This document shows, piece after piece, positions 112 to 62,710 of a stretch of 64,000 nt of DNA. The position numbers were made by a program, and so were the translations under genes. The DNA is from Tridacna crocea. Taxonomy: Eukaryota; Mollusca; Bivalvia; Cardiida; Cardiidae. The stretch lies in assembly GCA_943736015.1 (NCBI GenBank), contig OX031063.1, positions 42,610,672-42,674,671 on the forward strand, given 5' to 3'. The notes beneath the pieces are model-generated. The model searched no databases. It saw only the letters and a list, made by a program, of their open reading frames with translations, and had not been told where the DNA came from. Each line of letters opens with the position of its first letter. Within the stretch, counting starts at the first letter, position 1.

Positions 112-325
112 TGAACTCATTACCAAACGACAATATTATAGACTTGTCCAAATTGAAAGCATTTGCAGATGGTAAAATAAAAGTGACTGAAAATATGAAA
201 TTTGTTTTGTGAAGGGTAGAAAACATTGTGGGCAAAGGAGAAAATGCTGGATACCAGCATTTTCTCCTTTTACCACAATGTTTTCTAAAAGCTTCTTTCT
301 TAGGGGCGTCAAAAGTGGGGATTAA
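112..325 (-). mobile_element. TTAA-MITE family 1 copy (reverse)
   Basis: Starts with ACTCATTACCAAACGAC, has the central AAAATGCTGG..CCAGCATTTT hairpin and ends before TTAA at 322-325. Strand convention for all copies: '+' begins with the ACCA..CAATCCC end and finishes with the TTTGTCGTCTGCAAATGC side. Confidence 0.85.
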
Positions 326-540
326 TTACAGTCATTATGTTAAAATTTAGTTTACCTGGATTGACGAGGGTGATATGCAACAGACTAGAATAATTATGTC
401 TTTTGTATCAACCATGTACTTAGCATAGTTTTCCAGTGTTATGCATGTACATTGTGTGAAACTTTTATGTATTTATGTTTGTGTTTTTCTGTCAAACTCT
501 GAAAATGTGAGGCTCTCTGATTTCTTTTTTTGTTTTGCGG

Positions 541-552
541 GCGGGGGGGGGG
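541..552 (+). repeat. poly-G tract
   Basis: G-rich run (GCGGGCGGGGGGGGGGAGG) in the intron after the 842-982 exon. A similar run lies at 57761-57774. A simple-sequence feature with no coding sense. Confidence 0.8.
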
Positions 553-841
553 AGGAGAGAGAGATGTACAATCTGACACAAATTTCACACATGCAACTTG
601 ACCTGATACCACCAAACGTAAATGCAGCTGTAAATTTCCATTTTTTAGCCATATTCTAGTAAAAGAAACCTTGAAAGTGAAATAATTCCATCCACTTACC
701 TGACTGAAAGATTTACATATGTTTGTACAAGGTTTAATGTTTACATAAAACCATCGCACTGAAGGTGTTAACTGTTAATTTGGCATTGAATAGTAAAGAG
801 CGAAGAATCAAAATTTTCAGTTTTGTACAGACTTAATTTAC

Positions 842-982
842 CTTCAGGAGTCCTTGAATGCAAGCATCCACATAGGAAGTGTAACCATGGTTACCATCAC
901 TGATATCGTCTCCACTGAGCTGATCTAGGGTGACTGGATCACTGTGTCGAATTCTACATTTCACGAGGGTTGCTGCAGGTAT
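842..982 (-). CDS. DLC1: DLC-family exon: linker leading to START domain
   Basis: A 141-base, phase 0 exon, codons 827-873. It reads IPAATLVKCRIRHSDPVTLD, QLSGDDISDGNHGYTSYVDA, then CIQGLLK. The last part corresponds to the helix Y--Y---V--LLKE at the N-terminal edge of the START domain. The acceptor is AATTTTCTACAG (AG at 983-984) and the donor GTAAAT starts at 841. The START domain itself must be encoded left of the window. In the 841 bases to the left edge I see only one MITE copy and low-complexity DNA, and no further exon. Confidence 0.9.
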
Positions 983-1282
983 CTGTAGAAAATTAAATTT
1001 CTAATATCATAGAATCTTATCATGTTATATGTAAAATTTATGTCAGGGACAAATTATAATATCAAATCCACAGAGAGTTTATCAACCCCCCACCCCCACC
1101 CCCAAAAAAAATCAATTTGACTGGATCAGATGATTCAGGACAATTTGCACTCCCTAAGACTTAAAATACATGAATCAATAATCTGTGTATCAAAGGACGA
1201 TTCTACAATATGATTCCATCGCCTGGCAATTAGACATATGGATTTTATAGATCAATAATTATATAATGATAACTTGCATAGT

Positions 1283-1735: not shown

Positions 1736-1857
1736 CTTTCCCACAGCAGGGCTTAATTACAGAGAATCACATGATTCTTTCTCTAAAATGTGGTCCAAGG
1801 CTTGTCGTATGCAAATTCATACAGTAGTATCTATACAAGGTACAGATTGGTACTCAC

Positions 1858-2358: not shown

Positions 2359-2587
2359 TTAACCCTTTACCCCATAAGGCATTTACATAGCATCTCTAAT
2401 TGACCCTAAATAACAGCAAGGATGAGGCCGTTTCTTATGTGCAAATGACACCTTTTGATAGCATAGAAAACATTGTGACAAAAGGTGAAATTGCTCGTCA
2501 CGAGCAATTTCACCTTTTGCCACAATTTTTTCCAAAGGCTCCTACAAGCAATGTGTTGAAATGAGTATCTATGGAGTAAACGGTTAA
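2359..2587 (+). mobile_element. TTAA-MITE family 3 copy
   Basis: Bounded by TTAA. The ends are CCCTTTACCCCATAAGGC and its partner near GGAGTAAACGG. The central hairpin is GTGAAATTGCTCGTCACGAG then CAATTTCAC. This core replaces the family 1 core while the layout and TTAA flanks stay the same. Confidence 0.88.
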
Positions 2588-2938: not shown

Positions 2939-3167
2939 TTAACCCTTTCCCAAACAATCCCTGGTTTTTACGGGTCTGGAATAGTAGTCTTTTGAAAACA
3001 TTGTGGGAAAAGGAAAAAATGCTGGTAACCAGCATTTTCTCCTTTTCCCACAATGTTTTCTACCCTATCATGGACAGAAATCATCTTTTCAGCAAGAGTT
3101 GAATTGCCGTCTGCAAATGCTTTCAATTTGGTCTAGTCCAAAAGTTTGTCATATGGGAAAGGGTTAA
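2939..3167 (+). mobile_element. TTAA-MITE family 1 full copy
   Basis: 221 bp between TTAA sites; ends CCCTTTCCCAAACAATCCC and ATATGGGAAAGGG. Confidence 0.92.
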
Positions 3168-3221
3168 ATCATTTAACTATTTGCTACACCTAACCATGGG
3201 CTTTTATAGAGAAGACATGTT

Positions 3222-3618: not shown

Positions 3619-3846
3619 TTAACCCTTTCCCAAACAAGCCCTTGTTTTCATGTGTCTTCAGTTCAAGTCTTTTGAAAACACTGTGGGAAAAGGAGAAATT
3701 GCTCGTAAGGAGCAATTTCTCCTTTTCCCCCAGTGTTTTCTACCCATTTGGAGAACTTTCTGCCATTTTTATCAAATTTGAAATTGTCGTCTGCAAACTC
3801 TTTGAGTTTGGAAAAATCTAAAATTTATCATTTGGGAAAGGGTTAA
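3619..3846 (+). mobile_element. TTAA-MITE, family 1/3 intermediate
   Basis: Family 1 flanks and TTAA ends, but the hairpin tip is GAAATTGCTCGTAAGGAGC then AATTTC, the family 3 type core. Inner length 220 bp. Confidence 0.85.
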
Positions 3847-4282
3847 CATAAAATTCTGACTTTTATCAACCCTGAGAAAGAAGCCCATAGAAAAACATTG
3901 CAGTAAACAGCATTTTCTCCTTTTCCCAATATATTTTCCACCCTTTCAAAGTCAGAAATCATCATATTAAAAAGATTTAATTTGTTGTCTGCAGATTCTT
4001 TGAATTTGGTCCAGTCCAAAAATTTAAAGAGTTAAAGTATGACTGTGCAATATGCAAACAAGATGTATAAATACAGGGGAGGTAATTCTTCAAAGCTTAA
4101 CACAGAAATCCCAAATAATTTTGTCCTTGTTTTTCATGCTCTTATACATGATCTGCCAGAGGTTATCTTACCATCTGTGGTCTGAAGCATACTTTGAGGT
4201 GAGTATAGAGCAAGATCAGCCTCATGTTATGTGTTGTCATGTCTGCATACTCATCTCTTTTAGAAGGAATTGCTTTAAGATA

Positions 4283-4649
4283 TTAACTCTTTACCACACG
4301 AGAAAATTTTAGACTGGTCCAAATTGAAAGCATTTGCAGACGACAAAACAAAGGTAACTGAAAGTTTGAAACTTGTTTCGTGAAGGATAGAAAACACAGT
4401 GGGAAAAGGAGAAAATGCTGGTTACCAGCATTTTCTCCTTTTCCCACAGTGTTTTCAAAAGGCTTCTTTCTCAGGGGCGTCAAAAGTAGGGATTGTGTGG
4501 TAATGGGTTAACTCTTTACCATACAACAAAAATCAAGACTTGCACTACTCCAAAATATTTACAGACAGCAATTTGAACTTTGCTCAAATCATGCAATTTG
4601 TCTTCAGTAGGGTAGAAAACACTGTGGTTTTTTGCAGTAATGGGTTAAG
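4283..4649 (-). mobile_element. TTAA-MITE family 1 full copy plus abutting degenerate copy
   Basis: 4283-4511 is a 221-bp copy between TTAA sites. 4508-4649 is a decayed reverse copy sharing the TTAA at 4508-4511 and ending AATGGGTTAA. Confidence 0.88.
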
Positions 4650-5835: not shown

Positions 5836-5852
5836 ACACTACCAGCACTTAC

Positions 5853-5978
5853 AGGTAAATATACTTATAAAGATGTCCGAGAGTTTATTCGTCAAAAGGC
5901 ACTCTGGAAGTTCACGGAAAAACTGCTTCACTAAATCAGCCAAATCATAAGCTTGCTGTTCTTCATAATCAATAATTT
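5853..5978 (-). CDS. DLC1: DLC-family exon: central RhoGAP
   Basis: A 126-base exon, codons 676-716. It reads IIDYEEQQAYDLADLVKQFF then RELPECLLTNKLSDIFISIF, matching vertebrate YE-QSAYDVAD-KQ-FRDLPEPL-TNKL. It holds the Lys and the FRELP segment typical of RhoGAP domains; the usual LPEPL is LPECL here. The acceptor is TTTTTGTTTCAG (AG at 5979-5980) and the donor GTAAGT starts at 5852. A family 1 MITE ends about 17 bases from the donor. Confidence 0.95.
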
Positions 5979-6059
5979 CTGAAACAAAAACAAGTGTGAT
6001 GATTATAAGGCAACAAAATGTTAGACTATGCTGAGAGAAACATTGTGCACAAATCAAAA

Positions 6060-6470
6060 TCAGCTCAAAGGATAATGTCTTACAGAGGATAAAACAATCT
6101 TATGGAAAAACAGATGAGCTGGTAATCATTTTGTAAATCGAGACGCTTTTAATTTGTCATCTGCAAATGCTTTCATTTTAGACCAGTCAAGCATTTTATT
6201 GTTGGGGAAAGAGTTAAATCAGAATTTTTGTCATCTGGAAAAGAGTTAACCCATTACTGCACAATTAATTTTTATGATCTTGATTGAATTGGCTTTTGAA
6301 AACATTTGGGAAAGAGAAAAATGGTGATAACCAGCATTTTTCACCTTTTCCCCCAATTTCTAGCCTGTATCAGTCTCTGTGGTATTAGCAAACTATGTCA
6401 CTTGTATGCACGAAAACTGAGAACTTGGTGAAGTAGGCTACAACATTTTTGTCTTTGGTTAAGAGTTCAG
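6060..6470 (+). mobile_element. Two decayed TTAA-MITE family 1 copies
   Basis: 6060-6217 keeps only the right arm (TTTGTCATCTGCAAATGC..AGAGTTAA). 6246-6470 has a diverged hairpin (AAAAATGGTGATAACCAGCATTTTT, shown in part) and a right end TTTGGTTAAGAGTTCA. Confidence 0.65.
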
Positions 6471-6506: not shown

Positions 6507-6743
6507 TTAACCCTTTACCCCATAAGGCATTTCTATGGTATCTCTAATTGACCCTAAATAACAGCAAGGATGAAGCCATTTCTTGTGTGTATACGAGTAT
6601 AATGACACCTTTTGATAACATAGAAAACATTGTGACAAAGGTGAAAATGCTCGCCACGAGCAATTTCACCTTTTGCCACAATGTTTTCCAAAGGCTCCTA
6701 CCAGCAATGCATACAAATGAGTATCTATGGAGTAAAGGGTTAA
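6507..6743 (+). mobile_element. TTAA-MITE family 3 copy at a splice donor
   Basis: TTAA-bounded, ends CCCTTTACCCCATAAGGC and ATGGAGTAAAGGG. Its right TTAA (6740-6743) begins at intron base 9 after the 6752-7170 exon. Confidence 0.9.
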
Positions 6744-6751
6744 GTAATTAC

Positions 6752-7170
6752 CTGGATTAGCCTCTATATCACTCCGAAGTTTCTGTATTCGTGAACGGAC
6801 ACCAGATTTCCGAAATAATCCAACAGCATCACCTGATGTCCTTCGTAAAAATCTCATGGCATGTAAAATACACTGAGGTAAAGCCTGTCCAGTTCTCTGA
6901 ATCATCACAGTAAACGGTATTCCAAACACATGTTTATCCTTATAGTCTGGCATCTTGTGCCGCTTCATAAAGCGCGGAACACTTAAAGACCAGCCCGAGC
7001 GATTCGGTGAATAGGTTTCTATCAACGCTGTCAACTTGAGGAGTGAAAGTTTACGAAGCACCATGATCTGACCAGCAGACACACAATTTAGCTGTAAGTT
7101 ATGATTCTCCAACGATGGTCGATGTGTTTTCTGGAAACTATGCCATCGAATTCTGTACTTTCTACGATCA
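6752..7170 (-). CDS. DLC1: DLC-family exon: pre-GAP segment and N-terminal RhoGAP with arginine finger
   Basis: A 419-base exon, codons 536-674. It contains RIRWHSFQKTHRPSL (the family's R-RW-SFQ-HRPSL block), a LLKLTALIETYSPNRSGW segment, VPRFMKRHKMPDYKDKHVFG, and the RhoGAP start VFGIPFTVMIQRTGQALPQ. The catalytic arginine finger lies in GLFRKSGVRSRI; its Arg codon is at 6810-6812 (residue 655), so the GAP is predicted to be catalytically competent. The acceptor is TTTTCCATAG (AG at 7171-7172). The donor GTAATTAC starts at 6751, and a family 3 MITE begins at the ninth intron base. Confidence 0.96.
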
Positions 7171-7301
7171 CTATGGAAAAAAAATATAATATTGATCAGT
7201 TACTGAACAAATAAAAAGTTTTTAGACAGCTAAATTAAGCAGCTTTGAAAACATTGAATGAAACACTGTAATTCAAATATTCATCATCACTGTCTTTTTT
7301 A

Positions 7302-7587: not shown

Positions 7588-9270
7588 TAACAAGAGGGCC
7601 AAGATGGCCCTGGATCGCTCACCTGAATTTTTGAGATGACCATAGCCTATTTCTTTTTTGAGGTATTAAACATTGGAACCATATTTATAATTTTGCTAAG
7701 CAATTTTCAAAAGGTCAGTTTCAAAAAGAAGAATTTTTAAGAATTCTTCATTTCTGTATAAGAGCAAGTATCCCCCATCCACTGGAATCATGTTTCTTGA
7801 CAGATCAAAATTTACGAACAAGTTTTCAAAAAGGTCACCCAAGGAACATTTCGAAAATTTTTTTTTTAAATCTGACCAGGGGTTTCAGAGAAAGAGAATT
7901 TTCAAGAATTTCATCATGTCCATATAGTGCAACTAGCTCCCATTCACAAGAGCAAGGATCACCCAAGGAACATCCCTGTCAAATTATTTTAAAATCCGAC
8001 TAGGGGTTTCAGAGAAGAATTTTCAAGAATTTCTTCATTTCCTTATAGTGTAAGTAGCCCCAATTCACCAGAGCCATGTTTCTTGACAGATCAAAATTTT
8101 GTGAACAAGTTTTGAAAAGGGTCACCCAAGGATCATCTCTGTGAAATCATTTCAAAATCTGTCCCGCCGTTTCAGAGAAGAAGAATTTCTAAGAATTTCT
8201 TCATTTCCCTATAGTGCAAGTAGCCTCCATTCACCAAAGCCATGTTTCTTGACCAATCAAACTTTCGCAAAAACTGTTTGAAAAGGTTCACCCAAGGAAC
8301 ATCCCTGAGAAATTAATTCAAAATCTGACCATCGGTTTCAGAGAAGAAAAATTTTTAAGTATTTCCTCATTTCCCTATAGTGCAAGTAGCCCCCATTCAC
8401 CAGAGCCACAATTTTTGATGGATCAAAATTTCACAAACACTTTTTGAAAAGGGTCATCCAAGGAACATTTCTGTGAAATTATTTTAAAATCTGGCCAGCG
8501 GTTTCAGAGGAGAAGATTTTTAAAGAATTCCTTGATTTCTGTATAGCGCAAGTAGCCCCCATTCACCAGAGCCACATTTTTTGACGGATCAAAATTTCGC
8601 GAACAATTTTTGAAAAGGGTCACCCAAGGAACATATCTGTGAAATAATTTCAAAATCCGACCAGCGCTTTCAGAGGAGAAGATTTTTAAAGAATTCCTTG
8701 ATTTCTGTATAGTGCAAGTAGCCCCCATTCACCAGAGCCACAATTTTTGACAGATCAAAATTTCACGAACAAATTTTGAAAAGGGTCACCCAAGGAACAT
8801 ATCTGTGAAATAATTTCAAAATCCGACCAGCGCTTTCAGAGGAGAAGATTTTTAAAGAATTCCTTCATTTCTGTATAGTGCAAGAAGCTCCCATTCACCA
8901 GAGCCATAATTTTTGACGGATCAAAATTTTACGAAAAACTTTTGAAAAGGGTCACCCAAGGAACATATCTGAAATAATTTCAAAATCGGACCAGCGGTTT
9001 CATAGGAGAAGATTTTTAAAGAATTTGCTAAAAAATTCCATTTGGTTGCCATGGCAACCAGAGTTTTTGACGGAATCAAATTCTGCAAACAATTTTTAAA
9101 GAGGACCTCCCAAGGATCATTCCTGCCAAGTTTGGTCCGAATTGGCCCAGCGGTTTAGGAGGAGTTGATGTTTAAAGAATTGTTGACGACACACGACGGA
9201 AGATGCACGACGGACAGCCAGTGACCCTAAAAGCTACCCTTGAGCACGTTGTGCTCAGGTGAGCTAAAAA
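7588..9270 (+). mobile_element. Pearl-like tandem-core element, complete
   Basis: The left end AAGAGGGCCAAGATGGCCCT is followed by GGATCGCTCACCTGA. The right end is GTGCTCAGGTGAGC then TAAAAA; TCACCTGA and TCAGGTGA form subterminal inverted repeats. Between them lie about eight tandem monomers of roughly 167 bp, anchored by AAGTAGCCCCCATTCACCAG near 7760, 7928, 8048, 8218, 8384, 8550, 8718 and 8884, plus a divergent last unit containing GGTTGCCATGGCAACC. A GACGACACACGACGGA segment links the array to the right end. Bivalve 'pearl' elements have this layout and are often placed near Helentron-type non-autonomous elements; that class assignment is inference. No coding capacity. Confidence 0.8.
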
Positions 9271-12225: not shown

Positions 12226-12260
12226 TACAAGCTATATCTGACAATTATGTTGATACAAAC

Positions 12261-13383
12261 CTGCACTTTCCCCATAGATTGCTTTATTCATTCCATTTAT
12301 ATTCTGGAAAAGTTCTGAGAGAATGATGTCAAGCTCTTTCTGTGCTGTTTGTAAATCCTCCTCTATTGGAACATTGTCATAAATGCTAACTCTATTGTGT
12401 CTCTTTTTAGGGTCATTTGACCCTCGTCCTGAATGTCGACTAACAGGTAATTGGTCACTTTCAGCACAATAACTTAAACTTCTAGCACAAACACTTCTAT
12501 CTTTTCTAAACAAGGAATCATCTAAAATAGTTGGAAATTTCCCAGGTCTATGGTCTGAGGTAAGAAATACAGTGTCCTCAGAAGAATTAGTTGTTTCACT
12601 ACTATTGCTGTGCTTACTGACTGGAGATAAATCATGTCCTGAAAAACCATTTGTAGATATAGACAGATCTAACATGGTATCTGATACACTTGGTGTAGCC
12701 GACGTGGAGCTACTACTGGAATTATCATCCTTATTTACATATAAAGGTTCCCTTACTAATCCATTACCACTGACATGTCTGGCGTTTACGTCTGTCTCCA
12801 GTCCATGTAATACAAAGTCATCACTTGTGTCAGGTAACTTGCTAGCGGAAGAGCTAGAAACAAGCATAGAATGTGAATTTTTATCAGGGGCAGATTTAAT
12901 TTCTTTACAATTCAAATGCTTAATCTTGGCCTGCATATCTACTCTGTTCGCAGGCACTGGGTCACTAATTTCTGTGATAGTTTTGTGTTTTCTACTCTTT
13001 CTTGATTTCAAACTTTCCATTCGTTTAAGAAAGCCTTTAGCACCTTTAATTTTTTCACTTGCAGTTCTTTGAATGACCTTCGACCCAAAATGTCTTGTAG
13101 CATTAGCGTTGGTATCAAATGGTGTTGAATTACTCAAGATCAGTGTTCCATTGTCAATGTGATGCATCTTGTTATCCAGAACTGGGCTGTCTCCTGTCTC
13201 ACTACTACTGTTCTGATCAGCTAATAAGCTATCATGGCTTGATGTAGACCGTAAGATGTGCAGGTTGTGCCTGTTTTCAATGTCTGGTGGTTCTAGGTCC
13301 TTTCTAGACCAGCGCCGACAACTACGTTGGTATTTCCATTTGTCACTGAGAGCACACTGTTCTTCTTCATCTGAATCTTCTGC
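12261..13383 (-). CDS. DLC1: DLC-family large exon: serine-rich linker with LD-type motif
   Basis: An 1123-base exon, codons 72-445. It opens with AEDSDEEEQCALSDKWKYQR and then SCRRWSRKD, the conserved acidic and KW-x-QR-RRWSRKD block just after the SAM domain in this family. The rest is low-complexity, Ser/Thr/Asn-rich and basic (for example a KRMESLKSRKSRKHK cluster), as expected for the disordered, phosphorylated linker. Near the end it reads KELDIILSELFQNINGMN (420-437). This aligns with the vertebrate ELDDIL-HVNG segment, an LD motif that binds talin and FAK. The acceptor AG is at 13384-13385 and the donor GTTTGT starts at 12260. The Met at 13167 is internal, not a start. Confidence 0.93.
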
Positions 13384-13480
13384 CTTTTAACAATAAAGAA
13401 AAAAAGTTTCCATTTATAGAAATTATCTTAAACCAAATGTAACTTGCAGCTAACAACATTAACCCAACAAAGATGGCTTC

Positions 13481-14063: not shown

Positions 14064-14292
14064 TTAACCAATTACCAAATGACAAAATTTTAGGTCTGTC
14101 AAAATTGAAAGGAATTGCAGACGACAAAATAAAAGTGACTGAAAATTTGAAATTTGTTTTGTAAAGGGTAGAAAACATTGTGGGAAAAGGAGAAAATGCT
14201 TGTTACCAGCATTTTCTCCTTTTCCCACAATGTTTTCTAAAGGCTTCTTTCTTAGGGGCGTCAAAAGTAGGGATTGTTTGGTAATGGGTTAA
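14064..14292 (-). mobile_element. TTAA-MITE family 1 full copy
   Basis: 221 bp between TTAA sites, with a near-perfect hairpin. Confidence 0.92.
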
Positions 14293-17254: not shown

Positions 17255-17880
17255 TCCTTAATTCTTTACCATACGACAAAATTATCGACCATTCTAAATT
17301 AAAAGCACTTGCAGACGACAATTTACATGTAGCTCAAATGATGATTTCTGTCCTTGATAGGGAAGAAAACATTGTGGGAAAAGGAGAAAATGCTGATTAA
17401 AACATGGGATTGTGAGGTAAAGGGTGAACCAACCAATTCCATCGAAAAAGAAATGGGATTTTTAAAAAAATTGTGGGAAAAGGAGAGGGCTCTGTTAACC
17501 CTTTACCAAACAATTCCTGGCTTTTACGACCCTGAGATAGGAGCCTTTAGAAAACATTGTGCAAGATTTAGTATGTTGTCTGTTAATGATTTCAGTTTTG
17601 ACAAGTCTAAAACTTGAGTCATTTGGTTTAGGGTTTACAGGTGGTACTCACCAAACGACCAAATTTTGGACTGGATCAAACTGTAACCGTTTGATGAAGA
17701 CACATTATTAAAGCTCAAAGAATGATTCTATGATTTCTGTCCTTGACAGGACAGAAAACATGCTAGGACAATGGAGAAAATGCTGGTTAATCAGCACTGT
17801 GTCCTTCACCATCTACCTTTTCATCAGCATTCTCTTTCAGGGTCTTTAAAACTTGGGATTGTGGGATTGTTTCATAAAAG
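17255..17880 (-). repeat. Cluster of decayed TTAA-MITE family 1 copies
   Basis: 17258-17423 is a reverse copy lacking one hairpin arm. 17495-17640 is a forward left end joined directly to a right arm. 17640-17880 is a diverged reverse copy. Confidence 0.65.
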
Positions 17881-20306: not shown

Positions 20307-20535
20307 TTAACCCATTACCAAACAATCCCAACTTTTAACACCTCTGTGAAAGAAGCCTTTTGAAAACATTGTGGGAAAAGGAGAAAATGCTAGTAACCAG
20401 CATTTTCTCCTTTTCTCACACTGTTTTCTACCCTTCACAAAACAAATTTCAAATTTTCAGTCACTTATATTTTGTCGTCTGCAAATGCTTTCAATTCGGA
20501 CCAGTCTTTAATTTTGTTGTAAGGTAAAGAGTTAA
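20307..20535 (+). mobile_element. TTAA-MITE family 1 full copy
   Basis: 221 bp between TTAA sites. Confidence 0.92.
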
Positions 20536-22816: not shown

Positions 22817-23045
22817 TTAACCCATTACCAAACGACAATATTTTAGGCGTGTCCAAATCGAAAGCATTTGCAGATGACAAAATAAAAGTGACCGAAAACT
22901 TGAAGTTTGTTTTGTGAAGGGTAGAAAACATTGTGGGAAAAGGAGAAAATGCTGGTTACCAGCATTTTCTCCTTTTCCCACAATGTTTTCTAAAGGCTTC
23001 TTTCTCAGGGGCGTCAAAAGTAGGGATTGTGTGGTAATGGGTTAA
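22817..23045 (-). mobile_element. TTAA-MITE family 1 full copy in SINE tail
   Basis: 221 bp between TTAA sites; occupies the same TTTAAA of SINE-A as the copy at 11458. Confidence 0.93.
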
Positions 23046-23092: not shown

Positions 23093-23300
23093 TTAACCCA
23101 TTACCAAACGACAATATTTTAGACTGGTCCAAATTAAAAGCATTTGCAGACAACAAAATAAAAGTGACTGAAAATTGGAAATTTGTTTGTGAAGGGTAGA
23201 AAAACATTGTTACCAGCATTTTCTCCTTTTCCCACAATTTGTTTCCAAAGGGTCCTTTCTCAGGGGCGTCAAAAGTAGGGATTGTGTGGTAATGGGTTAA
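23093..23300 (-). mobile_element. TTAA-MITE family 1 copy in SINE body
   Basis: 200 bp between TTAA sites; it lacks most of one hairpin arm. The SINE reads through the junctions as CTTGCATTAATCTCTCTCG. Confidence 0.92.
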
Positions 23301-23459: not shown

Positions 23460-24245
23460 TCTGTTATTTACTGAAGGCATTTGCAGACCACCACTTGTCA
23501 AGACTTACGGTGGTATGTCTCGAATACATGTACAAGTAATTGGATTTTACTTTGAAAGGTGGAAAATATTGTTGAAAAAGTAGAAAAATCTTGTTTACAA
23601 TATTTTCCCCTTTATCTACAATGTTTTCAAATGTCTTTATCCTAAGTGTTGGCTAGGATTTAATGCATTACTACACAATCCCTGATTTTTATGACCCTGA
23701 GAAAGAAGCCTTTGGAAAACATTGTGGGAAAAGGAGAAAATTTCGGTTACCAGCATTTTCTCCTTTTCTCATACTGTTTTCTACCCTTCCCGATACAAAT
23801 TTCAAATTTTCAGTCACTTTTATTTTGACGTCTGCAAATGCTTTGGATTTTGACCAGTTTCAAATTTTGTCATTTGGTAAAGCGTTAAACTCTGACATAA
23901 AATGAAATGAATAATTTTAGTCCACCACAAAAATTTGATACTTTCAATTTTAAGACTTCTTTTCCCTTACCAAACAAATCCCAAGTTTAAACATGTCTTT
24001 TGGAAATATTGTGAGTAAAAGAGAAAATCTGAGTGACCAGCATATTTTCCTTTCCAAAACATATTTTATCATAATGAAAGTTGAATAACCTGATTTGAAA
24101 GACTGTATTTGTGTACTACAAAATGCTATTTGGACCAGTCTTGGTTAAGCACCCTTGGAAATAAGAGTTATGAAAACATTGTGGAAAAAGGAGAAAATGC
24201 TGGTTTATCGGCTTTATGGTTAGTATAAAATTAATTTGGAGATAA
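23460..24245 (+). mobile_element. TTAA-MITE family 1 copy among decayed copies
   Basis: 23660-23888 is a forward copy with TTAA on both sides. 23466-23659 and 23950-24220 hold decayed copies recognisable only by hairpin and arm words. Confidence 0.75.
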
Positions 24246-26115: not shown

Positions 26116-26505
26116 TAATCCTTTACCAAACAATCCCATCTTTTAACTCTTTACCAAACAATTCCAACGTTTAACTACCCCGAGATAGAAGCTTCTTGAA
26201 AACATTGTGGAAATAAGAGAAAATGCTGGTAACCAGCATTTTCTCCTTTTCCCAAAATGTTTTCTACTCATCCCAAATCAAATATCAATTTTTCAGTCAC
26301 TCTTTTTTTGTCATTTGTAAATCCTTTCAATTTGGACCACTCTATAAAATTGTTGTTTCGTAAAGGGTTAACAACCTTAGCTTCAGGGCTTTTGAAAACA
26401 GTAAGGAAGAGGGAGAAAATGTTGCCACCCAGCATTTTCTCCTTTTCCCTCAATATTTCCCACCCTTTCAATGGTCATTCCTTTCAATAGAGCGACATTC
26501 ATCAT
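26116..26505 (+). mobile_element. Older TTAA-MITE copy interrupted by a younger one
   Basis: The left remnant TTAATCCTTTACCAAACAAT..CTTTTAA is at 26116-26146. It continues after 26372 with CCTTAGCTTCAGGGCTTTTG and a hairpin; the right arm is lost. The inner copy is 26143-26371. Confidence 0.82.
26143..26371 (+). mobile_element. TTAA-MITE family 1 full copy, nested
   Basis: 221 bp between TTAA sites. Confidence 0.92.
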
Positions 26506-26506: not shown

Positions 26507-26728
26507 TTAACCGTTTACCCCATAAGGCATTTCTATGGTATCTCTAATTAACCCTAAATAACAGCAAGGATGAAGCCATTTCTTATGTGTATATGACACC
26601 TTTTGATAACATAGAAAACACTGTGACAAAAGGTGAAATTGCTCGTCACGAGCAATTTCAGCTTTTGCCACAATGTTTTCCAAAGGCTCCTACAAGCAAT
26701 GCGTAGAAATTAGTATCTTTGGAGTTAA
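26507..26728 (+). mobile_element. TTAA-MITE family 3 copy
   Basis: Starts TTAACCGTTTACCCCATAAG; the right terminus has lost its AAAGGG and shares TTAA with the next copy. Confidence 0.88.
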
Positions 26729-26953
26729 CCCATTACCACATAATCCCTACTTTTAACGACCCTGAGAAAGAAGCCTTTTGAAAACACTGTGGGAAAAGGA
26801 GAAAATGCTGGTAACCAGCATTTTCTCCTTTTCCCACAGTGCTTTCTACCATTCCCAGAACGAATTTCAATTTTTCAGTAACCTTTATTTTGTCGTCTGC
26901 AAATGCTTTCAATTTGAACCAGTCTAAAATTTTCTCGTTTGGTAAAGAGTTAA
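26725..26953 (+). mobile_element. TTAA-MITE family 1 full copy
   Basis: 221 bp between TTAA sites. Confidence 0.92.
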
Positions 26954-28540: not shown

Positions 28541-28801
28541 TTAACCCTTTTCCCCATAAGTGGTTCACTACCTTTAACCCTTTTCCCCCCATAAGGCATT
28601 TCTATGGTATCTCTAATGGACCCTAAATAACAGCAAGGATGAAGCTGTTTCTTACATGTATATGACACCTTTTGGTAGCATAGAAAATATTGTGACAAAA
28701 GGTGAAATTGCTCGTCACGAGCAATTTCACCTTTTGCCACAATGTTTTCCAAAGGCTCCAACAGGCAATGTGTAATGAGTATCTGGGGAGTAAAGGGTTA
28801 A
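28541..28801 (+). mobile_element. TTAA-MITE family 3 copy with duplicated left end
   Basis: The left end with its flank (GTGGTTCACTACCTTAACCC and following bases) occurs twice in tandem, offset 33 bases. The hairpin GTGAAATTGCTCGTCACGAG is perfect. Right TTAA at 28798-28801. Confidence 0.87.
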
Positions 28802-29584: not shown

Positions 29585-29813
29585 TTAACCTTTTACCACA
29601 CAATCCAGACTTTTAACAAACCTGAGAAGGAAGCCTTCTGAAAACATCATGGGAAAAGGAGAAAATGCTGGTAACCAGCATTTTCTCCTTTTCCCACAAT
29701 GTTTTCTTCCCTTCCCACAGAAAATTTCAAATTTTCAGTGACTTATATTTTGTCATCTGCAAATGCTTTCAACTTAGCCCAGTCTAAAATTTTGTCGTTT
29801 GCTAATGAGTTAA
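29585..29813 (+). mobile_element. TTAA-MITE family 1 full copy
   Basis: 221 bp between TTAA sites. Confidence 0.92.
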
Positions 29814-30559: not shown

Positions 30560-31098
30560 CGGTTAACTCTAACAAACGACAGTACTTTTGACTCGCCTTA
30601 ATTCAAAGCATTTACAAAAGACATCTTGATCATGGTTTAAATTTTTACCTTTGAAATGGTAGATGCACTGTGAGAAAAGCAGGAACTGCTGGTTACCTGC
30701 ATTTTTGTCCTTTTCCAATAATGGTTTCAAAAGCTGTCTACATCAGGGTTGTTTAATCACAGGTTTGTTAAGTATAGGGTGAACAAAATGTTGGATTGAA
30801 CAGAAATCAACCTGTTTGGAATTGCCAACTTCTAACCCTTAGAGAACTGAATTAATGGAACAGAACTTTTTAACCCCTTATCAAACAATCCCTGGTTTTT
30901 ACGACCCTGAGACAGAAGCCTTTTGAAAACATTGTGGGAAAAGGAGAAAATGCTGGTAACCAGCATTTTCTCCCTTTCCCACGATGTTTTCTACCCTGCT
31001 GGAAACAAATGTCAATTTTTGAGCTACACTTGTTTTGTCGTCTGCAAGTGCTTTCAATTTTTACCAGTCTGAAATTTTGTCGTTTGGTAAAGGATTAA
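30560..31098 (+). mobile_element. Decayed reverse copy, then TTAA-MITE family 1 full copy
   Basis: 30560-30785 is decayed. 30870-31098 is a forward copy with 221 bp between TTAA sites. Confidence 0.85.
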
Positions 31099-32415: not shown

Positions 32416-32644
32416 TTAACCCATTACCACTCAATCCCTACTTTTGACGCCCCTGAGAAAGAAGCCTTTTGAAAACCCTGTGGGAAAAGGAGAAAATGCT
32501 GGTAACCAGCATTTTCTCCTTTTCCCACAGTGTTTTCTACCCTTCCCAAAACAAATTTCAATTTTTCAGTCACATTTATTTTGTCGTCTGCAAATGCTTT
32601 GAATTTAAAACAGTCTAAATATTTCTCGTGTGGTAATGGGTTAA
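32416..32644 (+). mobile_element. TTAA-MITE family 1 full copy
   Basis: 221 bp between TTAA sites. Confidence 0.92.
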
Positions 32645-34038: not shown

Positions 34039-34491
34039 TTAACCCATTACCACACAATTCCTACTTTTGACGCCCCTAAGAAAGAAGCCTTTAGAAAACA
34101 TTGTGGGAAAAGGAGAAAATGCTGGTAACCAGCATTTTCTCCTTTTCCCACAATGTTTTCTGCCCTTCACAAAACAAATTTCAAATTTTCAGTCACTTTT
34201 ATTTTGTCGTCTGCAAATGCTTTTAACCCTTTCCCAAACAATCCCTGGTTTTTACGGGTATGGAATAGTAGCCTTTTGAAAAGATTATGGGAAAAGGAGA
34301 AAATGCTGGTAACCAGCATTTTCTCCTTTTCCAACAATGTTTTCTACCCTATCATAGACAGAAATCATCTTTTCAGCAAGATTTGAATTGTCGTCTGCAA
34401 ATGCTTTCAATTTGGTCTAGTCCAAAAGTTTGTCGTTTGGGAAAGGGTTAATTTGGGCAAACCTAAAATTTTGTTGTCTGGTAATGAGATA
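34039..34491 (+). mobile_element. Older TTAA-MITE copy interrupted by a younger one
   Basis: The outer forward copy runs 34039-34226 and resumes at 34452 with TTTGGGCAAACCTAAAATTT, ending GTAATGAGATAA. Confidence 0.92.
34223..34451 (+). mobile_element. TTAA-MITE family 1 full copy, nested
   Basis: Exactly 221 bp (34227-34447) with ends CCCTTTCCCAAAC and GTTTGGGAAAGGG, perfect 13-bp inverted termini. Confidence 0.95.
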
Positions 34492-37526: not shown

Positions 37527-38005
37527 TTAACTCATTATCAAATGGCAATATTTTAGGCTTGTCCAAATCGAAAGCATTTGCAGATGACAATATAAAAAGT
37601 GACTGAAAATTTGAAATTTGTTCAGTGAAGGATAGAAAACATTGTGGGAAAAGGAGAAGATGCTGGTTACCAGCATTTTCCAGAATGTTTTCAAAAGGTT
37701 TCTTCCTCAGGGGCATCAAAAGTAGGGATTGTGTGGTAATGGGTTAAGATATGTAAATCTGAGTCATGCTCTGTGAAAAGAGGGTTTAACTCTTCACCAA
37801 ACAACTGAATTTTAGACTGTTTCAAACTGAAAGCATACGCAGACAACAAAATTAAAGTGATTCAAAAATTGAAATTTGTATTGGGAAGGATAGAAAACAT
37901 TGTGGGAAAAGGGGAAAATGCTGGTTTTCTCCTTTTCCCACTATGTTTTCAAAAGGTTTCATTCTCAGGGTCGTCAAAGGTCGGTATTGCATGGTAAAGA
38001 ATTAA
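37527..38005 (-). mobile_element. Two reverse TTAA-MITE family 1 copies
   Basis: 37527-37747 (213 bp between TTAA sites, one shortened hairpin arm) and 37786-38005 (short hairpin arm). Confidence 0.85.
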
Positions 38006-40294: not shown

Positions 40295-40526
40295 TTAACC
40301 CTTTCCCAAACGACAAATAAATTTTAGACTCTTCGAAACTGAAAGAGTTTGCAGATGACAATTTCAAATTTGATAAAAATGGCAGAAAGTTTTCAAAATG
40401 GGTAGAAAACACTGTGGGAAAAGGAGAAAATGCTCGTTACGAGCAATTTCTCCTTTTCCCACATTGTTTTTAAAGGATGTGTACTGCAGACATGTAAAAA
40501 CAAGGGCTTGTTTGGTAAGGGGTTAA
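40295..40526 (-). mobile_element. TTAA-MITE, family 1/3 intermediate
   Basis: Family 1 flanks and TTAA ends with the core AAAATGCTCGTTACGAGC then AATTTC. Confidence 0.85.
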
Positions 40527-41894: not shown

Positions 41895-42348
41895 TTAACT
41901 CTTTACCACACGAGCAAATAACAGACTTGTCCAAATTGAAAGTATTTGCAGATGACATTTTAAACATAGCTCAAAGGATAGATTTTGACTTTGATAGAGT
42001 AGAAAACAGTGAGTGAAATGGAGAAAATGATGGTTACCAGCATTTTCTCTGTTTCCCACAATGTTTTCAAAAGGCCTCTTTCTATGGGTCGTTCAAAGTC
42101 AGAGTTGTGTGGTAATGAGTTAACTCATTACCACACAATCCCTACTTTTGACGACCCTTAGAAAGATACCTTCAGAAAATATTGTGGGAAAAGGAGAAAA
42201 TGCTGGTAACCAGCATTTCCTCCTTTTCCTATAATGATTTCTACCCTTCACAAAACAAATTTCAAATTTTCAGTCACTTTTATTTTGTCGTCTGCAAATG
42301 CTTTCGATTTGGACAAGCCTAAAATTTTGTCGTTTGATAATGAGTTAA
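41895..42348. mobile_element. Two TTAA-MITE family 1 full copies sharing one TTAA
   Basis: 41895-42123 (reverse) and 42120-42348 (forward) each have exactly 221 bp between TTAA sites and share the TTAA at 42120-42123. Confidence 0.93.
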
Positions 42349-43171: not shown

Positions 43172-43400
43172 TTAACTCTTTAGCACACAATCCCGACTTT
43201 TAACACCCCTGAGAAAGAAGCCTTTACAAAACACTATGGGAAAAAGAGAAAATGCTGGTAACCAGCATTTTCTCCTTTTCCCACAGTGTTTTCTACCCTT
43301 TCTAGACCAAATTTCAATTTTTCAGTCACCTTTATTTTGTCGTCTGCAAATGCTTTCACTTTGGACCAGTCTAAAATTTTCTTGCGTGGTAAAGAGTTAA
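43172..43400 (+). mobile_element. TTAA-MITE family 1 full copy
   Basis: 221 bp between TTAA sites; followed by a reverse left-arm fragment (ACACTTTACCAGGTGACAG). Confidence 0.92.
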
Positions 43401-48556: not shown

Positions 48557-48785
48557 TTAACCCATTACCACACAATCCCTACTTTTGACATCCCCGAGAA
48601 AAAAGCCTTCAGAAAACATTGTGGGAAAAGGAGAAAATGCTGGTAACCAGCATTTTCTCCTTTTCCAAAATTGTTTTCTACTCTTCACAAAACAAATTTC
48701 AAATTTTCAGTCACTTTTATCTTGTCGTCTGCAAATGCTTTCAATTTGGACCAGTCTAAAATTTTGTCGTTTGGTAAAGAGTTAA
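48557..48785 (+). mobile_element. TTAA-MITE family 1 full copy
   Basis: 221 bp between TTAA sites. Confidence 0.93.
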
Positions 48786-52404: not shown

Positions 52405-52850
52405 GTAACTCTTTACCAAACTGAGTCCTATGTTTATGTCCCTCAACGAGGTTTTTGAATATAGTAAGAACAGGAACTGACAATGTCCTTTTTCTCAAGC
52501 AATACTGTCTATCTTTTCAAAGACAAATTCTATTTTCTGAGCAACATTTAACCCATTACCAAACGACAATATTTTTGACTGGTCCAAATTGAAAGCATTT
52601 GCAGACGACAAAACAAAAGTGACTGAAAATTTGAAATTTGTTTTGTGAAGGGAAGAAAACATTGTGGGAAAAGGAGAAAATGCTGGTTACCAGCATTTTC
52701 TCCTTTTCCCACAATGTTTTCTAAAGGTGTCTTTGTCAGGGGCGTCAAAACTAGGGATTGTGTGGTAATGGGTTAACTTGTTGTTTGCAAATGCTTCCAG
52801 CTAAGAGAGGTCTGCCATGTGTTGTCTGGTAAAGTGTTTGATAATCTCTT
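52405..52850 (+). mobile_element. Older TTAA-MITE copy interrupted by a younger one
   Basis: The outer forward copy runs 52405-52551 and resumes at 52777 (CTTGTTGTTTGCAAATGC), ending GTCTGGTAAAGTG. The inner copy is 52548-52776. Confidence 0.87.
52548..52776 (-). mobile_element. TTAA-MITE family 1 full copy, nested
   Basis: 221 bp between TTAA sites, perfect hairpin. Confidence 0.94.
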
Positions 52851-56315: not shown

Positions 56316-56544
56316 TTAACTCCTTACCAAGCAACATAATTTTAGACTTGTCCAAATTGAAAGCATCTGTAGACAACAAAATAGACATGACTCAAAAATT
56401 GAAACCTGACTTTAGAAGAGTAGAAAACATTGTGGGAAAGGGAGAAAATGCTGGTTACCAGCATTTTCTCCTTTTCCCACAATTTTTTCAGAAGGCTTCT
56501 TCCTTTTGGTCGTAAAAACCAGGGTTTGTTTGGTAAAGGGTTAA
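56316..56544 (-). mobile_element. TTAA-MITE family 1 full copy
   Basis: 221 bp between TTAA sites. A decayed copy precedes it at 56110-56310. Confidence 0.92.
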
Positions 56545-57306: not shown

Positions 57307-57482
57307 CAGATGACTGCTGTCATCTTACTGTTGACCTAGGCAAATACTGTGGCAAAAAGAAATTGCTTGTAATAGGCAATTTGTCTTTTTTCCATGTTTT
57401 CATGTTTAACAAGCACATGTTTTCAAAAATTAGCAATTATAAAATATATTTGACCCTGTTCATAAAATTTATGAAATGAGCT

Positions 57483-58085: not shown

Positions 58086-58314
58086 TTAACCCTTTACTCC
58101 ATAGATACTCATTTCTACGCATTGCTTGTAGGAGCCTTTTGAAAATATTGTGGCAAAAGGTGAAATTGCTCGTGATGAGCAATGTCACCTTTTGTCACAA
58201 TGTTTTCTATGCTATCAAAAGGTTTCATATACACGTAGGAAATGGCTTCATCCTTGCTCTTATTTTGGGTCAATTTGAGATATCCTAGAAATGCCTTGTG
58301 GGGTAAAGGGTTAA
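58086..58314 (-). mobile_element. TTAA-MITE family 3 copy (reverse)
   Basis: Starts CCCTTTACTCCATAGATACT and ends GGGGTAAAGGG; hairpin GTGAAATTGCTCGTGATGAG has two mismatches. Confidence 0.88.
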
Positions 58315-58332
58315 TTTAGCACTCTAAGCCTA

Positions 58333-59470: not shown

Positions 59471-60012
59471 ACAAATCATAACATTACAACAGTTTGGACA
59501 AAAACACATACATACTTAGCTGATCTTTATCACCTGAAATGCACCACATTTCCCATCATCTTTCCATCAAACCTAAACACATTGAAATTATTTCCATGAA
59601 TCAAAGCAATTCCATCGATATTACAAACACTAAACTGTTGGGCACACTTCACTAGGTGTACTGATTGTCTTAATATTCATATTTTATACTCCTATCACGT
59701 TTAATATATCCATGTTTGTATCCTTGAAAGCCTATGAACCTAATGTGATCTAATTCAGTTTTCTAAAGAGACAGAAAAATCCCATTTGAATAATTAACCC
59801 ACTGCAACGAAAACACAGGTTTTTATTTGCCGTTGCGAAAAAACAAGCTGTGGGGAAATAGTGTGGTTGCTTGAAAAAAGCAATTGCTCCTGTTCTCACA
59901 GTGTACTCCATACAATGAGCAAACAGTATTTCTTTTCCTTTAAATGTTTCTCTTTTTGTGTCACTTTCAATAATTTTCATTTCAGCTCAAAACTAGTCCG
60001 TGAGGTATTGGG

Positions 60013-60475
60013 TTAACCCTTCACCACACATTATCCCAAGTTTAACCCTTTCCCACATGATGACGACTTTTGACGACCCATGGAAAGAAGCCTTTTGAAA
60101 ACATTGTGGGAAAAGGAGAAAATGCTGGTAACCAGCATTTTCTCCTTTTCCCAGAATGTATTCTACCCTAACAATAAACAATTGTGACATTTGAGCCACA
60201 TAGAAATTGTTGTCTGCAAATGCTTTCTGTATGGAGAGGGTTAAGATATTTATGTCTGGTAAACGGTTAACCACCCTAAGAGGGTGTTTAAACACATCAT
60301 GTTAAAAGGAGAAGATGCTTTCAGCCAGCACTTTCTCCTTTTCCCACAATGTTTTCTGCTTTTGAAGAAAAATACTTTGACTCTACCAACATTTAAGTTG
60401 TTGTCTGCATATTCCTCAAGTCTGACAAGTGTGTGAATCTTTTTTTGTGTAGAAAAGAGTTAAAACAGAAAGTAT
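60013..60475 (+). mobile_element. TTAA-MITE family 1 copies, compound
   Basis: A left-end remnant (60013-60041) precedes a forward copy 60042-60243 with an intact hairpin; an end fragment GTCTGGTAAACGGTTAA follows. A further diverged forward copy is at 60265-60475. Confidence 0.75.
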
Positions 60476-60556
60476 GTAAATCAAGATATATACTTGTGGC
60501 TACAAATTTTTCCTTTTTCCCCATACACAATACATTTTCAAAAAACAAGCGTACTA

Positions 60557-61917
60557 CGAGGGGTGTTCGAAAAGTTTCGGGACGATTGCCGTCATTCTTT
60601 TATTTATTAAGATTTTTCAATGATTTTTTCGGTAGTAATAGCTACAACCGTATTCTATAGGTTAATTGAAACAAATATACAAATATATACACCACACGTC
60701 ATGAATGGTCACTATAGCAACGTCAAGTCGACGTGAGCGGGGCACCTTGACGTTACTTCACAAAATATCTTCTTTTTAATAGCAAGTATAGATCACAATA
60801 AGTACTCCTGTATGTTTTTTAATTGTGTGTGACAAAAGTATTCACCTGCAGGGTACCCCGTCTACTACCTGCAATCAAAAGCTTCAGTGAGTCGCCGGCA
60901 GTATGGCTTTCCTAAAACAGCACAGGGAAAGAGGGGCCAGGTTCTCGGTATTCATTATTACGACCGATTTAACTTGGATTGGTTTGTATGATCCACAGAC
61001 CAAGCAAGACAGTTCTGTGTGGAAAAAACCCTAATTCACCCTCACCTACAAAAGCAATGGTGAAACGTTTTATTTCATTAAAATGAGCGGAGTTATTGTC
61101 TGCCACACACTACCGATTGGGAAGACAGTCACAGCACAGTATTAGTCGGACGTAAAGTTTTTTTAACTAAATTGTACATAAAATGATATTCTAATTTTAT
61201 ATGATGACACAGAATTGGTTGGTGAAAGCAGTAATTTATAGACATCTGTTTTGCATGTATATAGATGCATAGGTTGAACCGTAAGCTCGTTTCAGGTGCA
61301 CTGACATGAGTTGATCAGGGCTGTATAGGAGAAACAAACAAACAAACAAAAAAAAAAAACCGGCGCATTTTACTTTCATCACAAAAACGCCACACCTTAT
61401 ACTTCATCAACTACCAAGAAAGTACCTGCTGATAGATAGAGTAACACTATTGAGCACCCACCATACTCCTCTGACTCGATCCCTGTAAATTTTGGCCATT
61501 CAGCACTATCAAGCGTTACTGACGCGGTCACTGTTTTGACGACGTCGATGATCTTCCCCGCGTAGTCGGGGAATGTATAAGGAACATTCCACCATCAAAC
61601 TTCAAAAACTGTTTTAATTCGTGCGTACATAGGCATCAGAGGTGCATTGAGCACACACTGGAGTATTTTGAATAACCATAACTATTCCAGACACTTGTAA
61701 AGACAAACCTTTTATTCGGTGCATCAAGGTGCCCCGCTCACGTCGACTTGACGTTGCTATGGTGACAATAAATCATGCGTTTCGTGTATCTTCCTTTATT
61801 TGTTTCAACCAACTTATAAAATATGGTTGTAACTATCATTATCGAAAAACTCATTAAAAAATATCAAAATATAGAAGAACGGCGGCACTTGTCCCGAAAC
61901 TTTTCGAACACCCCTCG
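60557..61917 (+). mobile_element. Mariner-type DNA transposon, decayed, with about 200-bp inverted ends
   Basis: Flanked by TA (60555-60556, 61918-61919). The outer termini CGAGGGGTGTTCGAAAAGTT and its complement are perfect for about 26 bp. Beyond these, inverted similarity continues for about 200 bp per side, ending in a nearly invariant inner block (60713-60750 and 61724-61762) containing AACGTCAAGTCGACGTGAGC. A broken mariner transposase lies between. Confidence 0.9.
60903..61675 (+). pseudogene. Mariner transposase remnant
   Basis: 60903-61165 is one frame with stops at 61032 and 61143. It contains LTWIGLYDPQTKQDSSVWKK and MSGVIVCHTLPIGKTVTAQY, which match the central mariner domain around the second catalytic Asp (usually GDETW, here TDLTW). 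Around 61452-61470 HPPYSSD appears, followed in another frame by PCKFWPFS, where the third catalytic Asp of PCDFW would lie. A stop at 61520 and then FDDVDDL..., FKNCFNSCVHRHQRCIEHTL and EYFE with a TAA at 61673 form the usual C-terminus. The N-terminal DNA-binding part was not recognised. With frameshifts, stops and lost acidic residues it cannot be active. Confidence 0.85.
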
Positions 61918-62593
61918 TACATTTGATACAAAAACTACAATTTTGGTCATTATCAAAAATATTACTAGACAAGATAATTATGAAATTCCCAAAATTTCAG
62001 AGGTTGATTTGACAATATAAATTATAAACTTGAGATAGTTATTATCAATGGTTTGAAAAGTCAATATGTGATAGTCCTTCATCAGAACTCAAAATTTAAG
62101 ACAAACCCAAAGTAAATTAAGCATCCATTTTGACAATATAAAAATATGTTGTGTACCAAATTAAAGAATTTATTTTTGAAACTGTAGAAAATATAGTGGA
62201 AAATAAATGGTGAAATAAGTTTAATAACCTGCATTTTTTTTCTTTTTCCTAAAATGTTTTAAAGACCTTACTATCTTGCGAGCTGTAAAAGTGTGGGATT
62301 GTTTGGCAAAGGCATAAAGTCATTACTCATTAGAAACAACTTTGTGCAACTCTGCATTTGATTTATCTTTAAAAACTTTGTCCCACCTACTTCCTAATGC
62401 AGGTGTTATAAAAATAGTAGAAAAAGGAGAAATTGCTCCATTATTGCCAGGCAAGTGAAAACTACTTTTTATATACAATGGAAAAGACTGAAATTATTAC
62501 CTTTTTGAGAGGCACGGACTAGACATACACTGGTCAGTATAGATCTACCCAAGATCAGATTCCAGATTATAATTCTGGGCAATCTGATTTTAA
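61918..62593. repeat. Decayed MITE DNA
   Basis: A hairpin trace near 62185-62265 and the end GTTTGGCAAAGGCATAAAG suggest an old family 1 copy; nothing else is recognised. Confidence 0.5.
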
Positions 62594-62710
62594 TCCTTTA
62601 CCAAACGATAAGATTTTAGACTTGTCTGAATTAAAAGCATTTGCAGACGACAAAATAAACGTTACTCAAGTATTAAAAATTGACTTTAGAAGAGTAGGAA
62701 ACATTGTGGG
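62594..62710 (-). mobile_element. TTAA-MITE family 1, left part, cut by the next element
   Basis: Reads TTAATCCTTTACCAAACGAT through GAAACATTGTGGGAAAAGTAG and stops inside the first hairpin arm where the tandem-core element begins. Confidence 0.8.

Follow-up and report, generated by a model that had tools for sequence, protein, structure and literature searches.

A TTAA-flanked group of miniature inverted-repeat transposable elements with a conserved 67-bp central palindrome in Tridacna crocea

The 64,000-bp stretch of the Tridacna crocea genome analysed here (contig OX031063.1, positions 42,610,672 to 42,674,671; hereafter the window) is crowded with copies of a 221-bp, TTAA-flanked miniature inverted-repeat transposable element (MITE), an observation that had been made from the sequence alone and that is confirmed here as real and understated. 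A profile search with nhmmer, started from 34 seed copies and iterated once on 245 matches (which include opposite-strand matches to the palindromic core of the element and were made non-redundant afterwards), recovers 140 copies or fragments between positions 114 and 62721, 72 on the minus and 68 on the plus strand, that together occupy 25,360 of the 64,000 bases (39.6%), where the sequence-only reading had counted more than 60; neither a Markov-shuffled nor a reversed version of the window gives any match. With a 20-bit floor, below which matches were dropped in this count and in several counts on fetched loci, 133 copies are retained and cover 39.1% of the window. The full model of 229 columns, TTAA included, is spanned by 47 of the 140 copies, 42 of which have TTAA at both borders, and the length is exactly 221 bp in 22 of the 47 (21 of the 42 with both TTAAs), in agreement with the at least 19 copies of this length claimed before, all seven cited examples of which are 221 bp long with TTAA on both sides. 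When all model ends that are reached are counted, degraded copies included, TTAA is found at 73 of 99 left and 65 of 83 right ends. A scan for the end motifs (at most two mismatches in 14) gives 92 left-type and 88 right-type ends, compared with 2 to 6 left-type ends in each of ten Markov shuffles, and eight TTAAs are common to two abutting copies. The longest open frame of the element, 73 codons, is reached by 123 of 500 Markov shuffles and lies within chance, and a coding potential was accordingly rejected. The element is short (<500 bp), non-coding, of fixed length and present in high copy number, and the consensus of its largest family, Fam1, ends in the short, imperfect inverted repeats expected of a MITE (12 of 14 outer columns complementary, TTAA included).

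All copies had been assigned to one architecture, which is not borne out, since clustering of 206 near-full copies from the window and from fetched loci separates Fam1 (135 copies), Fam2 (14) and Fam3 (4), with the other 53 copies in clusters of fewer than four; the group holds at least three related MITE families. The reference Fam1 copy, which served as the genome query, lies on the plus strand at 48561..48781 between TTAAs at 48557-48560 and 48782-48785; its left end (48561..48570, plus strand) is CCCATTACCA and its right end (48772..48781), read on the minus strand, is CTCTTTACCA. Further Fam1 copies of 221 bp are located on the plus strand at 2943..3163, 20311..20531, 23664..23884, 26147..26367, 26729..26949, 29589..29809, 30874..31094, 32420..32640, 34227..34447, 42124..42344, 43176..43396 and 60046..60266, and on the minus strand at 4287..4507 (with the TTAA at 4508 common to the next copy), 14068..14288, 22821..23041 (the top profile score in the window, 246 bits), 41899..42119 (with the TTAA at 42120 common to the next copy), 52552..52772 and 56320..56540. 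Fam2 is represented on the minus strand by copies at 2359..2587 (TTAAs included, 221 bp between them, with different flanks and the palindrome in the same position), 6507..6743 (TTAAs included), 26507..26728 and 28574..28801 (TTAAs included), and on the plus strand at 58086..58314 (221 bp between its TTAAs, 58090-58310). Fam3 copies lie at 3620..3843 on the plus strand (220 bp between the TTAAs, 3623-3842) and at 40298..40525 on the minus strand (224 bp, 40299-40522), along with a weak Fam3-like fragment (27 bits) at 57333..57401 on the plus strand. The shared termini described previously exist but need correction: among the 42 window copies with both TTAAs, the commonest ends begin with C, the commonest left end being CCCATTACC (13/42) and the commonest right end CTCTTTACC (8/42), with CCCTTTACC on the right in 6/42. 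An 82-bp tandem duplication at 1327-1492 takes in a MITE fragment.

The Fam1 consensus contains a central 67-bp palindrome (model columns 56-122; 48612..48678 on the plus strand in the reference copy), which has a single base at its centre and arms complementary at 33 of 33 pairs, and 51 of the 54 palindromes found in the window with 20-bp arms and at most two mismatches belong to the MITE group. A long palindrome unrelated to the group, with 58-bp arms and three mismatches, lies at 39408-39523. In their own alignments the Fam1 and Fam2 consensi have 229 columns each, that is, 221 bp between the TTAAs, and the palindrome occupies the same position in both; the Fam3 alignment has 226 columns, and this family was compared in the register of the model rather than in that of its own alignment. 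The cores of Fam1 and Fam2 are identical at 57 of 67 positions (85%), as opposed to 13 of 33 and 32 of 85 in the two flanks (38-39%, slightly above chance, with shuffle fractions of 0.047 and 0.02), while the ends agree at 11 of 14 and 12 of 14 positions with TTAA, or 7 of 10 and 8 of 10 without it. Fam3 is intermediate, sharing 59 of 85 right-flank columns with Fam1. What is new here is a near-perfect 67-bp central palindrome conserved across MITE families, and this, together with the division into at least three families and the genome-wide spread described below, goes beyond what had been noted from the sequence alone. Among the titles listed in a limited search of the open-access literature, none dealt with a TTAA MITE group in which a long palindrome is conserved.

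A similar distinction between core and flanks is seen within Fam1. Duplicate loci (L001, L023, L026-L029, L034, L037 and L069) were dropped before copies were counted. Over 244 core-spanning copies, reduced to 198 for later tests by dropping those with more than three core gaps, divergence is 10% in the core and ends and 20-21% in the flanks, and in the 135 aligned Fam1 copies it is 5.4% in the core versus 14.8-15.5% in the flanks, a difference equalled in 0 of 10,000 permutations. The 39 ungapped Fam1 copies (2 of 41 having been left out at <75% identity) give 3.6% for the core, 10.9 and 11.2% for the flanks and 5.1% for the left end; the gap between core and flanks persists without CpG/TpG/CpA columns (3.2% versus 9.0 and 10.6%) and is thus not explained by those columns. 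In the less diverged Fam2, core (4.1%) and flanks (4.9-6.3%) hardly differ (561 of 10,000 permutations). Taken together, the two families show the pattern to be expected if the core was under more constraint than the flanks in the source lineages and the resident copies then decayed uniformly.

The differences between families within the palindrome are mostly compensatory. Six pairs differ among the three family consensi, and five of them (63/115, 69/109, 76/102, 81/97 and 86/92) have changed on both sides and are still complementary, the sole one-sided difference being a change from G-C to G-T at 68/110. Among the 25 columns polymorphic at ≥20% in the ungapped Fam1 copies, 20 lie in the flanks, 3 in the ends and 2 in the core, and these last two (63 and 115) are palindrome partners; in 168 of the 198 copies (the other 30, outside the T/C-A/G cells, were left out) they read T-A 131 times, C-G 17, T-G 11 and C-A 9, with an odds ratio of 22. 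Genome-wide, single and double changes were counted with the rest of a 31-bp core exact and with left and right taken on the plus strand of the genome, against 183,553 unchanged places. At 75/103 (14 bp off centre) there are 8,888 and 8,843 single and 3,054 double changes (odds ratio 7.1), at 77/101 (12 bp off centre) 4,020 and 4,120 single and 481 double changes (odds ratio 5.3), and at 83/95 (6 bp off centre) 4,449 and 4,291 single and 282 double changes (odds ratio 2.7). A non-partner control gives 190 and 230 double changes with odds ratios of 2.0 and 2.3, values above 1 that we take as an effect of copies of different age, and two of the three partner pairs, 77/101 and 75/103, clearly exceed it. 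On the other hand, simple column shuffles overstate the symmetry: they give 82 symmetric changes versus 32.8 expected in the 198 Fam1 copies and 48 versus 13.1 in the window, and in the Fam1 copies non-complementary double changes are in excess as well (67 versus 38.7). When the rate of each copy is corrected for, in pairs that are not diagnostic for families, symmetric changes within Fam1 amount to 50 versus 40.2 expected, which indicates that the decay of resident copies mostly affects one arm at a time and that coordinated change in the palindrome is mainly found in founders and not in resident copies. Repair of one arm from the other after insertion, considered as the main keeper of the palindrome, was set aside on the same figures.

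The mode of insertion is revealed by empty sites, all of which are paralogous rather than orthologous. For this purpose 96 of 163 full copies were used as queries, and at least 679 rows from 23 queries cross the junction, although most of them arise because the flanks are MITE copies themselves; five loci were examined individually, with the out-of-register copies L056 and L003 excluded from the counts. At the clearest of these, a family-A piggyBac element harbours a Fam1 copy (L031:844-1070), and each of the eight siblings that match the joined flanks at >95% (L013-L019 and L033; 96.3-97.6%, gap-free) carries a single TTAA at the site. It follows that the MITE inserted with duplication of TTAA, and that it did so after the spread of the family-A piggyBac, so that mobility of the group is fairly recent. 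Three further loci provide eight in-register empty copies, of which four (L039, L083, L010 and L046) have a single TTAA, three read CTAA, TGAA and CTAA and one reads CTGA. Two of the Fam1 copies concerned lie in the window inside other repeats, both on the minus strand and with TTAAs included: one at 23093..23300, with empty copies at 17942, 11746 and 25597 (CTAA, TGAA and CTAA, respectively), and one at 37786..38005, for which L010 and L046 have a single TTAA and L015 has CTGA. The first of these host sequences is a dispersed repeat of the window (11746, 17942, 23093-23300 and 25597), one copy of which carries the MITE insertion. In conclusion, the evidence supports a non-autonomous MITE group that inserts at TTAA and duplicates it.

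The strong amplification proposed from the window alone is upheld at the scale of the genome that contains it (1,048,827,098 bases in 31 contigs). There are 89,240 exact matches to the 23-bp left end TTAACCCWTTACCAMACAATCCC (44,793 forward and 44,447 reverse) and none to its reversed pattern, and 30 of 30 fetched places, all within the initial 0.92 Mb of C1, lead on into the body of the MITE, some of them shortened; the exact 31-bp palindromic core is present at the 183,553 places mentioned above and the exact 25-bp left end of Fam2 at 17,451. The exact core was not found in the viral contigs or the bacterial and archaeal genome contigs searched, where near records may be omitted. Scaling by the window, which has 12 exact ends and 23 exact cores for 133 copies, leads to totals of about 0.99 and 1.06 million copies. 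In ten 1.5-kb loci at round-number positions, picked blind to sequence, the 15 kb held 16 copies, a coverage of 16.3% (standard error 4.2 points), and seven of the ten had at least one copy, from which about 1.1 million copies would be expected genome-wide. Other fetched flanks have a coverage of 14.7% near exact ends and 20.6% near piggyBac loci, and a biased set, near the best matches, has 31.7%; judged by exact ends and by exact cores, the group is about twice as dense in the window as in the genome on average. The group is accordingly estimated at about 1 million copies and about 16%, or a sixth, of the 1.05-Gb genome; if the copy number holds, this animal genome carries a very large load of MITEs.

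At least 118 scored matches to the piggyBac transposase domain PF13843 are present in the genome, including near-identical families with open frames; none falls within the window coordinates, consistent with the claim that an autonomous partner is not present there. Of these matches 30 loci were read, followed by 2 wider re-fetches and 6 further loci, and element ends were sought both by comparison of near-identical copies and as TTAA-anchored matching ends, the latter search, at one of its settings, yielding at least one chance pair in 17 of 160 shuffles. End pairs were recovered for 14 of the first 30 loci and 1 of the 8 others, and for over half of the loci read there was none. The recovered ends include CCCTTTATATAC, CCCTTTCAGTGC, CCCTAGTCATGC and CCCATTTATGCC, plus CCCTCTAGAGCC with 2 of 12 mismatches, and none of them fits the MITE pattern CCC[A/T]TTACCACAC. 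CCC-starting TTAA-flanked ends are nevertheless common to the MITEs and to several open-frame piggyBac loci of the same genome. The strict piggyBac motif CC[C/T]T is found at both ends in 8 of the 42 full window copies, and MITE ends are often CCCA or CTC instead. In this regard, the intact open-frame PF13843 locus L011 has CCCATTTATGCC, with a CCCA start, at both ends, which implies that such a start does not exclude piggyBac and that CC[C/T]T is not strictly defining here. Another locus, L085, was considered as the autonomous partner because a degenerate transposase lies there between MITE-like ends at 14 and 3978, but the first of these ends is that of a full MITE (14-242) and the second that of a MITE fragment (3887-3978), and the candidate was discarded; its other end pair, CCCATGTATGCC/CCCATTTATGCC, groups it with L011. 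Ends were also sought, and not found, at L024-L029, L034 and L037, and L025-L029 and L034 are near-identical across the whole fetched 4.1 kb and L037 across about 3 kb. Seven of these loci (L025-L029, L034 and L037) have a piggyBac-like gene in near-identical repeats (at least 4.1 kb in six of the seven) that also bear MITE copies. A further piggyBac family (L013-L019 and L023) of about 2.77 kb has CCCTTTATATAC ends, open frames and copies up to 99.9% identical and looks recently active; its relatives L031 and L033 carry Fam1 insertions.

Compared with the piggyBac superfamily, the group is alike in its TTAA target and the duplication of it, in its CCC-starting short ends and in having open-frame relatives in the same genome, and unlike it in that the MITE has no transposase, that none of the recovered end pairs belongs to a matching autonomous element and that strict CC[C/T]T is absent from both ends in the majority of full copies. 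The piggyBac-type reading proposed initially stands as regards TTAA insertion, and as regards ancestry it is plausible; the longer element with the same ends that it suggested looking for was not among the end pairs recovered from the piggyBac loci read. As CC[C/T]T mostly fails and the ends of the other TTAA-targeting superfamily considered, Kolobok, start with purines, the group is best described as working like a piggyBac-type MITE, and its attribution to piggyBac as likely but unproven.

It is proposed, with a probability of roughly 60% for the explanation as a whole, that this is a TTAA MITE group moved by piggyBac and that its palindrome has been preserved in source lineages. The families would most likely be moved in trans by piggyBac-type transposases. 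Their conserved parts are the palindrome and, when families are compared, the outermost ~10 bp; the intervening flanks drift, yet the overall length hardly changes. Since the changes between families are compensatory and resident copies lose pairing one arm at a time, pairing or half-site identity appears to be preserved in the lineages that found copies, most simply because the palindrome helps mobilization or amplification, and its likeliest role would be that of a binding site for a dimeric transposase or a host factor, or of a DNA hairpin or cruciform. By analogy, a binding-site role is conceivable because the palindromes within piggyBac and piggyBat ends are reported to be bound by paired C-terminal domains (PMC11707139). 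The stronger claim that amplification requires the long perfect palindrome as a cis-acting module, selected for pairing or half-site identity in source lineages with freely drifting flanks, and that this is how the group reached about 1 million copies and a sixth of the genome, is put forward only tentatively and has rather less than an even chance of being right.

Several observations weigh against these proposals. The right end of Fam1 (12.8% divergence in ungapped copies) is as variable as the flanks, and private changes (<20% frequency) are rarer in the Fam1 core (2.7%) than in the flanks (7.5-8.0%), so that a reading based on source lineages needs many rare ones. The Fam3 consensus was built from four copies. 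A single non-partner combination served as control for the genome-wide double changes, 83/95 is barely above it, and 22 of 40 listed double changes at that pair are complementary, about what the single-change spectrum leads one to expect by eye; the rate-corrected excess of symmetric changes within Fam1 is weak. The palindromes of piggyBat and piggyBac ends, at 14-19 bp, are much shorter than the 67 bp seen here. As for the mobilizer and its target, strict CC[C/T]T is absent from both ends in 26 of the 42 full window copies, no autonomous element with MITE ends was found among the recovered piggyBac end pairs, none of which equals CCCATTACCACAC, and at a second family-A insertion (L033:3350-3578), a locus less clear than L031 whose joined site reads TTTTAATC, the six siblings shown read TTTTATC and not TTAA. 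Finally, arm copying by template switching could yield the same compensatory pattern.

This last process is the basis of the most probable of the rival explanations, according to which the palindrome is functionless, replication template switching copies one arm onto the other and the compensatory changes of the founders are purely mutational. The mechanism has been described (PMC8794818; PMC8604942), and all three complementary types (A-T, T-A and C-G) occur at 77/101, where 35 of 50 listed double changes were complementary when counted by eye. The centre base has changed from A to T in 19 of 34 changed copies, compared with a share of 0.36 at other A/T core columns, an excess that inversion of the spacer would give, and the tested pair nearest the centre (83/95, 6 bp) has the smallest excess of double changes. 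However, double changes are few relative to single ones (481 versus 8,140 at 77/101), symmetric change within Fam1 is near expectation once rates are corrected, arm copying alone seems too slow for five of six family differences to be symmetric, and the conservation of the core sequence itself (57/67 versus 38-39% in the flanks) would be left unexplained, for which reasons this account, the main mutational alternative, is regarded as unlikely. The template-switch-maintained hairpins of PMC8794818 resemble the present case in their compensatory double changes in inverted repeats and differ from it in that they belong to RNA genes, whereas the element here is mobile and has about 183,553 exact core sites. 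A third way of accounting for the palindrome is that the core acts as RNA, hairpin transcripts being processed to small RNAs through which the element would persist. The whole 221-bp reference copy folds strongly as RNA (z = -6.1), the one-sided change at 68/110 still pairs as G-U on one strand, and MITE-derived human microRNA genes are known (PMC1784062); yet there is no Rfam match at the gathering threshold, and since a DNA palindrome folds either way the folding does not separate RNA from DNA function, which leaves an RNA role improbable.

Other alternatives concern the mobilizer and the history of the core. The elements may be moved by another TTAA-targeting transposase, such as Kolobok or an unrecognized group, as would be compatible with the lack of strict CC[C/T]T ends in most copies and with the mismatch between the MITE and every piggyBac locus with recovered ends; among molluscs, moreover, reports of Kolobok types come almost entirely from bivalves (PMC10294476). 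Against this, Kolobok ends are described as starting with purines (RR; AG in Xenopus; PMC6004289), whereas the commonest MITE ends start with C, and CCC-starting TTAA ends are shared with the open-frame piggyBac loci already listed, and a mobilizer of this kind is considered quite unlikely. The Kolobok/T2-MITE system of Xenopus is otherwise similar in its TTAA target and its long-lived MITEs, and differs in its RR (AG) ends (PMC6004289). About as improbable as an RNA role is a history in which recombination passed the core, as a capturable cassette, from one TTAA MITE to another with no other relationship between them: this would account for the low flank identity of Fam1 and Fam2 next to an 85% identical core, but the equal length and core position of the two families, a flank identity slightly above chance and the intermediate Fam3 argue for common descent of whole elements.

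The closest precedent for a TTAA MITE group with a preserved internal region is provided by the CMITEs of the coral Acropora (PMC2872659), which likewise have TTAA flanks, several families with different ends, a conserved internal region of unknown origin, tandem or abutting copies and a proposed piggyBac affiliation. The present group shares with them, by description (the coral internal sequence being shown only in a figure of that paper), an internal region that is conserved while the rest differs (57/67 versus 13/33 and 32/85). CMITEs are about 100 bp long and estimated at about 1,600 copies (here 221 bp and about 1 million), and the stem "palindrom" is absent from the main text of that paper, whereas a 67-bp palindrome with compensatory change is present here; a further difference from CMITEs is that the conservation of the ends (11/14 and 12/14, TTAA included) is close to that of the core. 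The group is ordinary in kind and unusual in its conserved palindrome and its scale. The factors behind the enormous amplification of some MITEs are an open question for which the CMITE study already suspected internal sequence, and the suspected module here is the palindrome with its compensatory change between families. The prediction is that exact sequence should matter less than pairing or half-site identity, and these copies offer a very large natural sample for telling selection from template-switch mutation.

Besides the MITE group, the window contains pieces of a RhoGAP domain on the minus strand between 1834 and 7199, of which that at 5842-6099 is above the Pfam cut-off and those at 6669-7199 and 1834-2064 are below it; they probably represent exons of a single gene, interspersed with MITE copies. 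A long open frame at 12235-13386 has no Pfam match. Two tandem arrays are also present, one with a 166-bp unit in 6.5 copies at 7954-9026 and the other with a 145-bp unit in 8.3 copies at 62791-64000, which reaches the end of the window.

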